A stretch of 33,389 bases of DNA. Source: a virus. Position 1 is the stretch's first letter. Each line of letters starts with the position of its first letter. The stretch is from the IMG/VR virus record IMGVR_UViG_3300012006_000018, positions 1-33,389 of that record. One strand, written 5' to 3'. Both the position numbers and the translations under genes were made by a program. Of this stretch, positions 5,491 to 19,941 are shown one piece after another. The notes beneath the pieces are model-generated. The model was not told the DNA's origin and did not search any database. It saw only the letters and a program-made list of their open reading frames with translations.

Positions 5491-6074
5491 GCTTCCTCCA
5501 TTGCCGACTTGCGGGCATTCTTGGCAGCGACAATAGCTGTCATGGCTTCGTTGTCGTTAACTTCCTTGGCGGCTTTATAGGCGACCGTATAAGCCGTTTT
5601 CAGCGCGTCCTGTGTCGTAACTGCGGCGATAGCGTCCAAGTGCGTGTTAAGCGTTTCTAAGCGTTTCTGAGGGGCATTCTTACCGCTTGCCGCATTGCCG
5701 TCATCGTCCTCGGGGGCGACACCGCAGGCAGCGGCAAGGCTGTACCGGCGGGCATACGTCAAAGCACTACCGTAGCCTTGGGCATCAGCCTTGCTGACCG
5801 GCAAGTTAAGCACCCCACAGGACAACCACTCACCGGAGGCGTGGAGCAGGATTGTTTCGACGCGCACTTCATCCTTGTCGGATGGCTCGACCCGCTGAAT
5901 GTAGCTCAACCCGCATTGACCAAAGGCAGGACGAATGGCTTCGACCACCGAGGACAGGTCGGCATACTTAGATTTGAAGAAAGGATTGTTACTATCCTTG
6001 ATTGCGCCTTTGATGTTCATTTGCGCCATTGCCAGCGCGGTCGCAAGATTTGCAATGGATTCGGATTTGTTCAT
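5487..6074 (-). CDS. erf: ERF-family single-strand annealing protein, 195 aa
   Basis: The sequence shows ERF-family motifs: SIANLATALAMAQMNIKGAI, then NPFFKSKYADLSSVVEAIRP, where FFKSKYADL is the signature, CGLSYIQ, and GYGSALTYARRYSLAAACGVAPEDDDGNAA. These proteins form rings that anneal complementary single strands, as P22 Erf does, and help circularise or recombine phage DNA. Together with the YqaJ nuclease it forms a two-component recombinase. The C-terminal ~70 residues are Ala/Lys-rich and probably helical. Both gene ends overlap neighbours by four bases. Confidence 0.93.
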   Translation of the reverse strand: MNKSESIANLATALAMAQMNIKGAIKDSNNPFFKSKYADLSSVVEAIRPAFGQCGLSYIQRVEPSDKDEVRVETILLHASGEWLSCGVLNLPVSKADAQGYGSALTYARRYSLAAACGVAPEDDDGNAASGKNAPQKRLETLNTHLDAIAAVTTQDALKTAYTVAYKAAKEVNDNEAMTAIVAAKNARKSAMEEA

Positions 6075-6468: not shown

Positions 6469-6497
6469 ACTTTACTTACCTAATTGCCACTTGTCAA
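6469..6497 (-). promoter_or_regulatory. Leftward early promoter (PL-like)
   Basis: On the minus strand TTGACA (6497-6492) is followed after 17 bases by TAAAGT (6474-6469). A start near 6462 would give a leader of about 30 nt to the first gene at 6429. It points toward the recombination operon and lies back to back with the rightward promoter. Confidence 0.7.
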
Positions 6498-6548: not shown

Positions 6549-6578
6549 TTGACAAGATAGCTTTGCACAGGATACGAT
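6549..6578 (+). promoter_or_regulatory. Rightward early promoter (PR-like)
   Basis: TTGACA (6549-6554) is followed after 18 bases by TACGAT (6573-6578). It precedes the Cro-like gene, giving a leader of about 25 nt. With the leftward promoter it makes a lambdoid-style divergent control region, but the repressor gene usually found between such promoters is missing. Confidence 0.65.
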
Positions 6579-6609: not shown

Positions 6610-6831
6610 ATGGACGTTAAGCAAGCAGAGCAGCATTTTGGCAATCGCAGGAAGCTCGCAGAGGCATTGGGCATTACGAGCCAAGCAGTCAGCCAATGGG
6701 CAAAGCGCGGACAGATTCCCGAGGGCGTGGCATACAAGCTCCAAGTCATCACAAACGGGGCGCTGGTGGTCAATCCTGTTGACTACATCCCCGTCGAGCA
6801 TATGGTTGCCGAGATCGTTCCGCAGCAGTAG
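6610..6831 (+). CDS. Cro-like helix-turn-helix regulator, 73 aa
   Basis: A helix-turn-helix is plain at about residues 14-36: NRRKLAEALGITSQAVSQWA, followed by KRGQIPEGVAYKLQVIT. This is the layout of Cro/YdaS-type phage regulators. AGGAG (6598-6602) lies seven bases before the ATG at 6610 and only one base from an upstream ATG at 6604, so the shorter protein is preferred. It is the first gene of the rightward transcript and probably represses the divergent early promoters. No partner CI-type repressor is found, so it may serve only to turn early transcription down in a lytic cycle. Confidence 0.85.
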   Translation: MDVKQAEQHFGNRRKLAEALGITSQAVSQWAKRGQIPEGVAYKLQVITNGALVVNPVDYIPVEHMVAEIVPQQ

Positions 6832-6860
6832 TTGACAAACAGAAAATAATTGTTTACTGT
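6832..6860 (+). promoter_or_regulatory. Promoter for structured RNA / Mom region, inside an inverted repeat
   Basis: TTGACA (6832-6837) with a 17-base spacer and TACTGT (6855-6860) starts directly after the Cro-like stop codon. The element is embraced by a perfect 8-bp inverted repeat, GACAAACA (6834-6841) and TGTTTGTC (6862-6869), which could be an operator. AATTGTTTACTG at 6848-6859 recurs with one change at 6449-6460 in the divergent early region. Confidence 0.65.
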
Positions 6861-6866
6861 GTGTTT

Positions 6867-7010
6867 GTCCGAGAGAAAGATCGGGCGGCGTGTGGCAACG
6901 CTAAAGCGAAATGAAGAACCCTTTAGAAGGGGCTTCGGTTGTTTTTGGGTATGTTTCGCACCCACTTGCCACCGCAGCCGTAAGCCTCTTCTAGAGGGTT
7001 TTTCTTTTGG
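6867..7010 (+). ncRNA. Structured leader RNA / candidate small RNA or attenuator
   Basis: From a likely start near 6867 the transcript can form a hairpin of about 26 bp (6914-6940 with 6976-7003, one bulge at 6981, a few G-U pairs) capped by a TGGGT/ACCCA stem (6946-6950 with 6960-6964). Each arm is itself palindromic: CCCTT-TAG-AAGGG at 6919-6931 and CCTCT-TCT-AGAGG at 6985-6997, so two short hairpins compete with the long one. GTGGCAA (6892-6898) can also pair with TTGCCAC (6966-6972) across the long stem, giving a pseudoknot or a switch. A run of T follows the stem. No known RNA family is recognised. Confidence 0.6.
6985..7008 (+). terminator. Rho-independent terminator
   Basis: CCTCT (6985-6989), a three-base loop and AGAGG (6993-6997) are followed by G and TTTTTCTTTT. 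The long stem described for the RNA at 6867-7010 also ends at this T run, so termination could occur with either fold. Read-through would be needed to express the Mom-like gene from this promoter. Confidence 0.65.
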
Positions 7011-7018
7011 GCTACACC

Positions 7019-7162
7019 ATGCTGGGCAATGAGAGCAACAGCGGCATGAGTGGAAAGCGCAACTGGTGGCTAAGGTCTGAAACAGCGCAAATAAGGGCGG
7101 CGAAGTTAGCACCCTTGACCGAAAGGCTGACGCGTGTCGCGGCTCCGAAGAGCAGCTACTAA
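7019..7162 (+). CDS. Small basic hypothetical protein, 47 aa
   Basis: This small, very basic protein begins MLGNESNSGMSGKRNWWLRS and ends LTERLTRVAAPKSSY. It lies between the terminated RNA and the Mom-like gene. No good ribosome site precedes the first ATG; an internal ATG at 7046 is possible. Phage Mu places the translation activator com before mom, but this protein lacks the cysteine knuckles of Com, so I do not call it so. Coding status rests on composition and position only. Confidence 0.45.
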   Translation: MLGNESNSGMSGKRNWWLRSETAQIRAAKLAPLTERLTRVAAPKSSY

Positions 7163-7165
7163 AGG

Positions 7166-7190
7166 GCGCATAGGCTAAGGCTACGTGCGC
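7166..7190 (+). promoter_or_regulatory. Hairpin in the leader of the Mom-like gene
   Basis: GCGCA (7166-7170) plus TAG pairs with CTA and TGCGC (7186-7190), with a two-base bulge and a seven-base loop. It lies 38 bases before the ATG at 7229. It could be an RNA regulatory element for the Mom-like gene; there is no T run, so it is not a terminator. Confidence 0.35.
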
Positions 7191-7228
7191 TCACCAAAGA
7201 GCAGATAGCAGTAACTACTAGGAACAAC

Positions 7229-7894
7229 ATGAAGATACTTTCGCTCAAACCACAAGAAGTTAGTCCGTGGTTGCTGCAAAAGCATTACGCACGAAGGATG
7301 CCTCCAATATCTTATGCGTTTGGATTGTTTGCTCCCGATCTTGTTGGTGTCGTGACTTATGGCGTGCCTTCTTCTGCGTCTTTGCGTAGCGGCATCTGTG
7401 GCGATCAATGGAAAAACAACGTTTTGGAATTGAACAGACTTGTATGCAATGAAGGAAAAAATTATGCAAGTTTTCTTGTTGCAAATTCGCTAAAGCATCT
7501 GCCTCAACCGACCATTGTCGTAAGTTATGCAGATACAGCAATGGGGCACATTGGCTATATCTATCAAGCAACAAACTTCATTTACACCGGATTGAGCGCA
7601 AAAAAACAAGATTACAAAATTCGCGGCATGGAGCATTTACATGGTCAGACAATTGCTGATATGGCGATGGGTCAGGAGAACAGAGCAGACTGGTTAAGGG
7701 CAAAGTTTGGCGATGATCTTTACATTGAAGAACGATCACGCAAACACAGGTATGTTTTTTTCTGCGGTAACAAGTATCAAAAACGTCAGATGTTAAACGA
7801 TTTGAAATATGACCTAGAACCTTATCCTAAAGGTGAAACAAAAAAATACGATGCCGGTGGCGCAGTAGCTACTCAAAAACTTTTATTTGCATAA
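7229..7894 (+). CDS. mom: Mom-like DNA adenine hypermodification enzyme, 221 aa
   Basis: The protein resembles the phage Mu Mom family, a GNAT-fold enzyme that converts adenine in DNA to N6-carbamoylmethyladenine and shields phage DNA from restriction. Family-style blocks are seen in order: HYARRMPPISYAFGLF, VGVVTYGVPSS, VLELNRLV, ASFLVANSLKHLP, VSYADTAMGHIGYIYQATNF (the most characteristic), GMEHLHGQTIA and RKHRYVFFCG. AGGAA precedes the ATG. In Mu, mom is under tight transcriptional and translational control because the modification is toxic when early. Here a structured terminated RNA and a leader hairpin lie upstream and may serve that purpose. The actual base modification is inferred. 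Confidence 0.88.
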   Translation: MKILSLKPQEVSPWLLQKHYARRMPPISYAFGLFAPDLVGVVTYGVPSSASLRSGICGDQWKNNVLELNRLVCNEGKNYASFLVANSLKHLPQPTIVVSYADTAMGHIGYIYQATNFIYTGLSAKKQDYKIRGMEHLHGQTIADMAMGQENRADWLRAKFGDDLYIEERSRKHRYVFFCGNKYQKRQMLNDLKYDLEPYPKGETKKYDAGGAVATQKLLFA

Positions 7895-7902
7895 GGAAAT
7901 TT

Positions 7903-8052
7903 ATGACTGACAAGGAGATCATGCTGCAATACTTGTTGTTGAAGGTGAAACAAGAAGATTGGCACGGTGTAGCAGACGCAGCAATGGACATTCGTGAAAT
8001 GGAGGCTAAAAAATGTTCGACGAGTTCTACAGCAAGTTCCCAAAAAAAGTAG
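7903..8052 (+). CDS. Small conserved-type phage protein, 49 aa
   Basis: A compact acidic helical protein (MTDKEIMLQYLLLKVKQEDW, then HGVADAAMDIREME). Short proteins with a QEDWHGVADAAMDIREME-like core are common in phage early regions. The C-terminal tail after EAKK (CSTSSTASSQKK) overlaps the start of the next gene by 40 nt, which is odd; an earlier stop may have been lost. AAGGAA lies before the ATG. Function unknown. Confidence 0.7.
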   Translation: MTDKEIMLQYLLLKVKQEDWHGVADAAMDIREMEAKKCSTSSTASSQKK

Positions 8053-8357
8053 CCCGCAAGGATGCAGTCAAAGCATGGTCACGTCTGACTGCCGAGCAGC
8101 AACAAAAAGCATTGACGGCGATTGATGACCATGTGCGGATGTGGACGGCAGAGGGACGAGATAAACAATTCATTCCACATCCTGCAAGCTGGCTTAACGG
8201 CGAACGGTTCGACGATGAAATCTCGATGCCTGAGAAAAAGGTAGTCGCATGGTGGACAAGCGATCAGCTTACGATGGAACACGGTCGCAAGGTCGGAGTA
8301 CCGGCAAGACCGGGCGAGGATATGTTCCAGTATCGCCTGCGGTTACGGGCCGCGTAA
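8013..8357 (+). CDS. DnaT/replication-protein-like domain, 114 aa
   Basis: The sequence FDEFYSKFPKKVARKDAVKA with ...AWSRLTAEQQ and FIPHPASWLNGERFDDE is the small domain found at the C-terminus of phage replication initiators and DnaT-like primosome proteins. There the family acts in loading replication helicase, but this copy lacks an N-terminal DNA-binding part. It is the only replication-type gene I can see, so the phage probably relies on host replication enzymes. GGAG lies eight bases before the ATG. The C-terminal ~35 residues are less typical. Confidence 0.75.
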   Translation: MFDEFYSKFPKKVARKDAVKAWSRLTAEQQQKALTAIDDHVRMWTAEGRDKQFIPHPASWLNGERFDDEISMPEKKVVAWWTSDQLTMEHGRKVGVPARPGEDMFQYRLRLRAA

Positions 8358-18681: not shown

Positions 18682-18929
18682 ATGGCTTTCGCCAATAGTT
18701 CTATCAGCGATATCATTGCGACCAACATCCAAAGTCGTACTGGTGAACTCGCTGACAACGTAACAAACAACAACGCCCTCTTGCGCCGACTGAAGGAACG
18801 TGGAAACGTTAAGACCTTCTCCGGCGGTAACGTAATCTTGCAAGAGATCATGTACAACGACACGGCTACCAACAACACCAACAGCTATAGCGGCTATGAA
18901 GTGTTGAATGTGAGCCAAAACAGTCCCAT
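18682..18929 (+). CDS. Major capsid protein, exon 1 (codons 1-82 plus two bases)
   Basis: AGGAG precedes ATG 18682. The exon encodes MAFANSSISDIIATNIQSRT through VLNVSQNSP and the first two bases (AT) of an isoleucine codon. Without splicing, reading continues 11 more residues to TGA at 18964-18966, giving a useless 94-residue stub. Joined to 19188-19941 it gives a continuous 333-residue coat protein. Phage coat proteins of this group continue in the same way here (SPI-SAAQFS...). The exon end, CCAU, forms the 5' side of the intron's P1 helix. Confidence 0.92.
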
Positions 18930-19187
18930 TAATGCATTGGTGGCCTTGCAGAGAAATCTGCATTGAATAACTTTGTGAATTCGGTGAAACCCTGACCATT
19001 AAGTTGAAGGCAATACCGAGCCAAGCCCGCAAGGGAAGGTGTAACGACTAGAGGGTGACTCCTCGTAGAGCCAAGTGGCTCGAAGTGCAAAGAACCCGAA
19101 AGGGTTGTGAGATAGTCTGCTCTGCATAGAAATATGCAGCAGTCCGAAAGGGCGGCAAGGAAGTAACGAATCCTTGTGAACACATGG
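18930..19187 (+). ncRNA. Group I intron (IC3-like), 258 nt, no ORF, in the capsid gene
   Basis: A self-splicing intron. P1: exon CCAU plus intron UAA (18926-18932) pairs with UUGGUGG (18937-18943) with U18929.G18940 at the splice site. P10: GCAUUG (18934-18939) pairs with UAGUGC, the start of exon 2 (19188-19193). P2: 18947-18952/18957-18962, GAAA loop. P3: ACCCT 18989-18993 with AGGGT 19052-19056. P6: 19020-19022/19038-19040 and CCC-GCAA-GGG. P7: GACTA 19046-19050 with TAGTC 19113-19117. P9: 19122-19128/19133-19139 with GAAA loop, then more hairpins. It ends in G19187. The core words CGAGCCAAGC and GAAGGTGTA..GACTAGA match tRNA-type bacterial group I introns. Splicing joins the exons in frame. 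No homing endonuclease is encoded. Confidence 0.93.
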
Positions 19188-19941
19188 TAGTGCAGCACAG
19201 TTCAGTATCACTCAATACGCTTCGGCAGTTTCGATCAGCGGTCTTGAGATGATTCAGAACAGCGGCAAAGAGGCAATCATCGACCTGCTCGATGGTCGTA
19301 TGGCTGTTGCTGAAGCGCAGATTGCTAACCGTATCAGCGGCGACCTGTACTTGGACGGAACGGGCAACGCAGGAAAAAACCTAACCGGGCTTGGGGCGGC
19401 GCTTCCTGACTCGCCAAATACTGGGACGTACGGTGGAATTGATCGTGCTACTTGGACGTTTTGGCGCTCGGTTGCCTATTCCGGCGTAACCAACGGCGGT
19501 GCTGCTGTGACTGCAAGCAACATTCAGCAGTACATGGACAGCGTGGCGGTTCAGTTGATCCGGGGTACGGACAAGCCTGACCTGATCGTGGCTGACAACA
19601 ACTACTATCGTCTCTACCTGCAATCGCTCCAGTCGATTCAGCGCATTACCGATAGCGGTTCGTCGATGGCTGGTGCTGGCTTTGCCTCGCTGAAATACTT
19701 TGGCGCTGGTATGGCTTCGGACGTGGTGCTTGATGGTGGTATCGGTTCTGCTGCAACCGCTAACCATATGTTCTTCCTGAACACCAAGTACCTGATGTTC
19801 CGTCCGCACGCTGACCGGAACTTTGTTCCTATCGGTGGTGAACGCCAAGCAGTCAACCAGGACGCGATCGTGAAATTAATCGGGTGGGCTGGAAATCTTA
19901 CGTCAAGCGGCCCGCAGTTCTGCGGCGTGCTGATCGCATAA
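19188..19941 (+). CDS. Major capsid protein, exon 2
   Basis: The exon begins T-AGT-GCA-GCA-CAG, completing Ile83 and reading SAAQFSITQYASAVSISGLE, MIQNSGKEAII, and ends at TAA 19941. It supplies residues 83-333, with the coat-protein core (AEAQIANRISGDLYLDGTGN) and HMFFLNTKYLMFRPHADRNF near the C-terminus. An internal ATG (19249) opens a 230-codon frame but has no ribosome site, so independent translation is unlikely. Total spliced coding length, 248 + 754 = 1002 nt, is a multiple of three. HK97-type fold is expected but not shown. Confidence 0.92.

Follow-up and report, generated by a model that had tools for sequence, protein, structure and literature searches.

What occupies the interval between a Cro-like regulator gene and a Mom-like DNA modification gene in IMG/VR virus record IMGVR_UViG_3300012006_000018? 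We analyzed all 33,389 bases of this record, referred to here as the window, and comparisons with other loci were sequence-based. A first-pass annotation had assigned the interval a single structured RNA of about 140 nt, with nearly 400 bp spent on it, that could be a stand-alone small RNA (sRNA) or an attenuator of the Mom-like gene. An RNA of that length does exist, but it takes up only a third of the 397 bp. A second RNA had been missed; it belongs to Rfam family RF02932 and fills the rest, which rules out one 140-nt RNA filling the whole gap. Positions 6832–7206 hold two separable RNA modules, RNA1 (~6867–7003) and RNA2 (~7010–7206). We infer that the region is the leader of a phage early rightward operon with two consecutive RNA modules, in which RNA1 probably controls whether transcription continues into the early genes that follow it.

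RNA1 and its conserved fold

Positions 6867–7003 fold at −65.0 kcal/mol, compared with −41.6 ± 4.1 kcal/mol for dinucleotide shuffles (z −5.75). The features of RNA1 are given below, with the pair coordinates in the window read by hand. Compared loci carry L numbers; most are metagenomic fragments with no host assigned, and one is a contig of a Methylococcales metagenome-assembled genome (MAG).

6832–6860, + strand: putative RNA1 promoter; −35 TTGACA at 6832–6837, 17-nt spacer, −10 TACTGT at 6855–6860
6867–7003, + strand: RNA1, pseudoknotted and ending in a U-run, about 137–142 nt from its probable start, as suggested by minimum free energy (MFE) folding and conservation
6869–6884, + strand: hairpin P1, CCGA/UCGG; in L105 a compensatory change of A-U to G-C (CCGG...CCGG)
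6888–6901, + strand: hairpin P2, GCGU/ACGC, read from sequence, its loop being the 5' strand of helix X; X also lies within the loop of a small hairpin in most other RNA1 types (read by eye)
6892–6898, + strand: helix X, 5' strand GUGGCAA, pairing with 6966–6972; compensatory variants occur
6906–6912, + strand: helix Y, 5' strand GCGAAAU, partner GUUUCGC at 6953–6959
6917–6942, + strand: helix Z, 5' arm, 26 pairs with 6974–7000; contains the local hairpin CCCUU-UAG-AAGGG at 6919–6931
6966–6972, + strand: helix X, 3' strand UUGCCAC, pairing with 6892–6898
6974–7000, + strand: helix Z, 3' arm; contains the local terminator hairpin CCUCU-UCU-AGAGG at 6985–6997
6999–7008, + strand: terminator U-run UUUUUCUUUU; UUUUU in all aligned type-A RNA1s

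Much of this had been anticipated. The hairpin of about 26 bp corresponds to helix Z, the GTGGCAA/TTGCCAC pairing that crosses the long stem corresponds to helix X and shows compensatory changes in relatives, and the T run is where it was expected. The two local hairpins described as mutually exclusive are both present, but each of them excludes the long stem Z and not the other. The general picture of a promoter-driven, terminated, and highly structured RNA with competing folds was likewise consistent with the sequence. By its score the local terminator hairpin was not significant, as the region contains 4 terminator-like sites against 3.1 expected; its conservation, not its lone score, is what counts.

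The promoter had been described as good. Its −35 element is perfect, but its −10 element has only 3 of 6 matches and was not listed by a pattern scan. Among the aligned type-A loci the TTGACA is fixed in all but one, while the spacer and −10 element fall into several different alleles. Upstream of 26 RNA1-like units, promoter-like scores were higher than in random windows (p = 9e-8), and in the phage genome MW202545 TTGACA...TATAAT precedes RNA1, with RNA2 behind it. Conservation among relatives sets in at TGTCCGAG (6866), 6–7 nt past the −10 element, and the start of RNA1 is therefore likely close to 6867. The stretch from TTGACA to RNA1 (6838–6866 and its homologues) exists as several alleles that have been swapped independently of RNA1, perhaps representing different Cro-like operators. 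In MW202545 (L095), at about 5700–5760, the cassette is positioned just downstream of an apparent tRNA-gene 3' end, as read from the sequence.

That coding sequence does not explain the region was also confirmed, since no conserved frame was present. Coding in 6867–7206 was rejected because RNA1 homologues vary in length by numbers not divisible by 3 and stops interrupt most frames, and an overlapping 60-aa open reading frame (ORF) at 6850–7032 was not supported. ARAGORN found no tRNA or tmRNA. None of 4227 Rfam families fits RNA1: the best match in the window was mir-2944 with 25.9 bits (threshold 56), and the microRNA matches of the window and L119-type RNA1s, all below threshold, were set aside as generic long-hairpin matches. 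No description of RNA1 was found in the full text of open-access papers, and it appears to be undescribed.

A pattern search of viral contigs with the RNA1 5' motif returned 47 stretches. Type-A RNA1s hardly vary in their 5' domain, with TGTCCGAGAGAAAGATCGG in 47 loci, although TGTCCGAGAGAAAGATCGG was itself the search seed. The helices have changed on both strands. Over 24 relatives, X occurs as UGGCAA/UUGCCA, UGGAAG/CUUCCA, CGGAAG/CUUCCG, and UGGUGG/CCACCA, with four of the six pairs changed. Helix Y has been wholly replaced and yet remains complementary (GCGAAAU/GUUUCGC in the window, GAGUGAU/GUCACUC in L085, UCAGAG/CUCUGA in L105) in three RNA1s that are near-identical outside it. Covariation in related phages, the check by which the first-pass annotation had proposed to judge its own claim, was thus seen in the compensatory changes of X and Y.

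Across ~190 phage loci, a structure scan detected more than 80 RNA1-like units, with largely unrelated sequences and a common plan consisting of a promoter, a hairpin with an X-forming loop, the Z 5' arm, the X 3' arm, the Z 3' arm, and a U-run. Scanning 1.53 Mb for this plan (Z at least 38, X at least 20) gave 102 hits, compared with 9 in the reversed sequence. Hits that were judged from their sequence to be chance, being in coding regions or GC-rich loci or of modest score, were left uncounted (L108, L109, L151, L163, L123, L098, L103, L149, and one in L057). Helix Z has 14–32 pairs, ends at the U-run, and is crossed by a second helix in 54 of 79 candidate regions (Z score at least 34). Compared with dinucleotide shuffles, X had a combined p of 9e-13 over 34 units non-redundant in X, a statistic that ignores shared ancestry. 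Among the scan hits are the phage genome MW202545 and the Mom-bearing phages L018, L020, L038, L043, and L052, the latter with RNA1 sequences unlike that of the window. Sequence searches of the phages collection returned one record (MW202545); two other queries found nothing there, and the search of plasmids found nothing. The complex fold of RNA1 is preserved almost entirely through paired changes, and the function of this RNA must therefore rest on structure or folding kinetics, not on sequence.

The helices of RNA1 compete. In the full-length MFE structures Z formed in 52 of the 54 units, and X and Z never occurred together because a nested fold cannot hold both. When the RNA was cut before the Z 3' arm, X formed in 41 of the 54. 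The Z 3' arm alone folded into a local hairpin in 53 units and the Z 5' arm in 51. The Z state averages 16.5 kcal/mol below X plus the local hairpins. Although they compete, X/Y and the long Z have both been preserved through sequence change in a large set of dissimilar RNAs. Since both sets of pairs are kept by paired changes, they point to two functional states or a real pseudoknot.

RNA2 and the independent recombination of the modules

Positions 7015–7135 match RF02932 over its full length (model 1–120) with 78.8 bits against a gathering threshold of 49.4. The family was also found in 13 of the viral loci scanned and in L119, which scores 101.4 bits, and a pattern search of viral contigs with the RF02932 core returned 115 stretches. 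As the RNA2 sequences were collected by their own core motif, the invariance of this motif is partly by construction, which does not apply to the covarying positions. The features of RNA2 are as follows.

7010–7206, + strand: RNA2, multi-pseudoknot, about 200 nt; 7015–7135 is RF02932, followed by a 3' extension whose conservation reaches about 7206
7021–7045, + strand: helix H1, 85.6% paired, changes on both sides
7039–7041 (H1 loop) with 7063–7065, + strand: helix H2, joining two hairpin loops, 100% paired, changes on both sides
7057–7061 with 7084–7088, + strand: helix H3, 91.5% paired
7074–7077 with 7117–7120, + strand: helix H4, crossing H3, 92.2% paired, all four pairs changed on both sides
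7093–7097 with 7112–7116, + strand: helix H5, 95.8% paired
7105–7110 with 7126–7131, + strand: helix H6, crossing H5, 98.2% paired

Across 38 diverse RNA2 sequences and seven helices, 93.4% of the cells were paired and 306 cells had changed on both sides, compared with 90 expected from shuffles. The covariation of this alignment was 0.654, against 0.168 when shuffled and at most 0.122 when slid. The consensus hairpins of Rfam (H1, H3, and H6) are supported by paired changes on both sides, and H7 is poorly formed in the window. RF02932 is listed as Betaproteobacteria-1 RNA, an sRNA of unknown function, and its Rfam model holds only these three hairpins, whereas RNA2 as described here adds the crossing helices H2, H4, and H5, together with H7 and a conserved 3' extension of ~70 nt. 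Many unpaired bases of RNA2 are invariant.

The loci examined here place RF02932 mainly in phage early operons. Among 369 genomes of the class to which the Methylococcales MAG belongs, it was found in that seed MAG and in 0 of the 368 others, so chromosomes do not commonly carry this RNA. No open-access paper naming RF02932 or 'Betaproteobacteria-1 RNA' was found. These results give the family a home in the early operons of phages, extend its structure to a pseudoknotted one, and supply it with a partner.

An apparent likeness of RNA2 (GGUGGCGAAG...GAAAGACUGACG) to part of 16S rRNA was dropped because no rRNA matched in a permissive Rfam scan. The 3' part of RNA2 (~7144–7206) carries phage-specific direct repeats of 5–9 nt spaced ~50 nt apart, also seen in L096, L131, and L165. 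The repeats are AAGAGCAG (twice) in the window, AGACAG (twice) in L096, and AAAGGGCAG (twice) in L131, each behind a conserved CUCC or CACC, and they possibly provide two alternative partners for one strand.

The promoter, RNA1, RNA2, and the next gene recombine independently. RNA1 occurs without RF02932 in L064, L065, L076, and L084, as well as in L058 and L061, where another sequence takes its place; RF02932 occurs without RNA1 in, for example, L094, L132, and L186. The window and L012 are 82% identical upstream of RNA1 and 92% identical downstream of it, yet RNA1 itself is only 60% identical. In contrast, L005, L070, and L074 share RNA1 at 100% with different downstream regions and next genes. 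L106 and L122 are near-identical except that L106 has lost the Z 3' arm and the terminator through a deletion beside CCAG repeats, with the promoter and RNA2 kept; L106 is either a natural terminator-less RNA1 variant or an assembly artefact. Other conserved or unique sequences replace RNA2 after the U-run in L018/L020/L044, L045/L051/L052, L038/L043, L030/L031, L056, L058/L061, and L084. Some of these are apparently non-coding and could be further unnamed phage RNA families; judged by energy alone, at least four such groups fold no better than shuffles.

Role of the cassette

We consider the chances about even that RNA1 serves the early rightward operon as a conditional terminator (attenuator) in its leader. 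In many freshwater phages the cassette has a Cro-like gene upstream and replication genes downstream. Phages without RNA1 have a −10-like element at the start of RNA2, at the position behind the preceding gene where other loci have the −10-like element that precedes RNA1 (L132/L186 compared with L099/L126/L138). This common position suggests that transcription of the operon starts from a promoter upstream of RNA1 and has to pass through RNA1. A start codon lies within about 10–30 nt behind the U-run in L041 and L064, leaving little room for another promoter. The transcripts of RNA2 and the operon thus probably pass through RNA1, which would make it a conditional terminator. For the same two reasons, an attenuator of the whole operon is favored over one of the Mom-like gene. 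Further points in favor of a conditional terminator are the fold kept through sequence change, the two competing states, the putative promoter directly before RNA1, the L106 deletion that spares the promoter and RNA2, and the location after the Cro-like gene, which recalls that of putR in phage HK022 (PMC9378689).

During synthesis of RNA1, X/Y would form first and hold the Z 5' arm as a local hairpin. The emerging Z 3' arm would then have three options. It could fold on itself, giving the terminator hairpin and U-run and releasing the transcript; it could pair fully with the 5' arm, a fold that would also stop at the U-run; or its inner half could pair as a pseudoknot with X, masking one arm of the terminator and allowing read-through. 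Polymerase that reads through would transcribe RNA2 and the operon. The candidate trigger may be a protein, an RNA, or the elongation rate, and RNA2, which the mRNA of the operon would carry at its 5' end, would be a plausible binding site for RNA polymerase or a protein.

As in attenuators and riboswitches with intrinsic terminators, a putative promoter leads to a predicted terminator hairpin and U-run before genes, and X/Y against Z supplies a conserved competing fold. Unlike these systems, the RNA1 types are hypervariable and have no common ligand-type core, and the alternative is not a classic anti-terminator but a structure crossing the long stem.

Several points weigh against a conditional terminator. 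The −10 element of the window is weak. Termination and read-through at RNA1 are both predicted from sequence, the fold allowing read-through is a topological argument, and the long Z stem, too, runs up to the U-run, which means that both predicted end states could terminate. Several individual X helices are no better than shuffles, and X failed to form in 13 of the 54 units when the RNA was cut before the Z 3' arm. In the window itself, the structure present before the Z 3' arm is made is ambiguous and not clearly X/Y. Lastly, an RNA with its own promoter and terminator fits an sRNA gene equally well.

As such a gene, RNA1 would be a stand-alone trans-acting sRNA released by its terminator, with the knot serving stability or host-protein binding and with RNA2 made by partial read-through. 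This is possible but on balance somewhat unlikely. The promoter and U-run, the near invariance of the type-A 5' domain (with the caveat of the seed), and the portability of the unit between contexts (L006, L008, L062, and L095) are all consistent with it. However, no unpaired sequence is shared across RNA1 types, so there is no common seed or protein site; the promoter position in phages without RNA1 and the start codons close past the U-run point to action in cis; and the terminator-less L106 persists.

Antitermination by RNA alone, in which RNA1 and/or RNA2 would bind the elongating host RNA polymerase in place of an N-type protein, would have its precedent in phage HK022. The put RNA of HK022 is about 70 nt long with two stem-loops, and putR lies ~270 nt downstream of the PR start (PMC9378689). 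It is likewise a leader RNA of phage early operons, and it suppresses terminators by binding the zinc-binding domain of the polymerase β' subunit. The cassette, located just past the early promoters and the Cro-like gene, has a position comparable to that of putR, and the elaborate conserved fold and invariant unpaired bases of RNA2, which lies in an operon leader in all contexts seen, could suit such a contact. Neither RNA resembles put, though: RNA1 has about 140 nt, crossing helices, and a terminator at its own end, while RNA2 has about 200 nt and multiple pseudoknots. Being behind the terminator of RNA1, RNA2 could act in cis on later terminators only, and the contact with polymerase is hypothetical. 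We regard this explanation as unlikely.

A combination of the two roles is similarly doubtful. Here, a hypervariable RNA1 would make the stop or read-on decision and the RNA that follows, either RF02932 or any of several unrelated sequences that occupy its position, would engage polymerase or a host factor to pass later terminators, as a widespread RNA-only control of early operons. If true, this would parallel the lambda N/nut system but need no protein.

It is very unlikely that RNA1 is an exchangeable immunity or incompatibility RNA, where the RNA of a resident or co-infecting phage would pair with Z or X strands and force termination, leaving dissimilar alleles immune. The allele-like pattern of RNA1 identity described above for L012 and for L005, L070, and L074 and the divergence of helices through paired changes would fit, but ordinary recombination and structural drift yield the same picture, and neither an antisense promoter nor a second copy is known.

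An attenuator dedicated to the Mom-like gene, as the first-pass annotation had suggested, almost certainly does not apply: Mom is the next gene in the window and in L012–L014, but these are only 4 of ~45 loci with this RNA1 subtype, the same cassette stands before methyltransferases and replication genes in most relatives as well as before other unrelated ORFs, and L005 has an identical RNA1 and a 98% identical RNA2 with no Mom. The distribution refutes a dedicated function; Mom is merely the next gene behind the cassette here and could be one of several regulated downstream genes. In phage Mu the mom gene is also controlled at the RNA level, in the com-mom system, but no com-like gene was noted here, and mom is not a fixed companion of the RNA cassette.

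Neighboring genes and minor observations

A pattern scan placed divergent promoter-like sites at 6469–6497 (leftward) and at 6549–6578 (rightward, before the Cro-like gene). An ERF annealing protein and a YqaJ exonuclease are encoded among the leftward genes. The rightward genes around the cassette are listed below.

6610–6831, + strand: Cro-like helix-turn-helix regulator gene (P22_Cro/YdaS type); Pfam PF14549 (E 5e-18) and PF15943 (E 2e-9), PHROG 409
7229–7894, + strand: Mom-like DNA modification gene; Pfam PF25680 Mom (E 3e-36), PHROG 1384 (E 4e-50)
8013–8357, + strand: replication-initiation-like gene; PHROG 270, gene cluster c1, the recurrent downstream neighbor of the cassette

In related phages, int-alpA RNA (RF02996) occurs near the Mom-like gene (L046, 698–767 and 4003–4074; L047, 1131–1202). 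Further along the window, a group I intron (RF00028) at 18920–19139 on the + strand scores 62.5 bits (gathering threshold 50). It lies between the ORFs 18682–18966 and 19249–19941, which are probably one split capsid gene.
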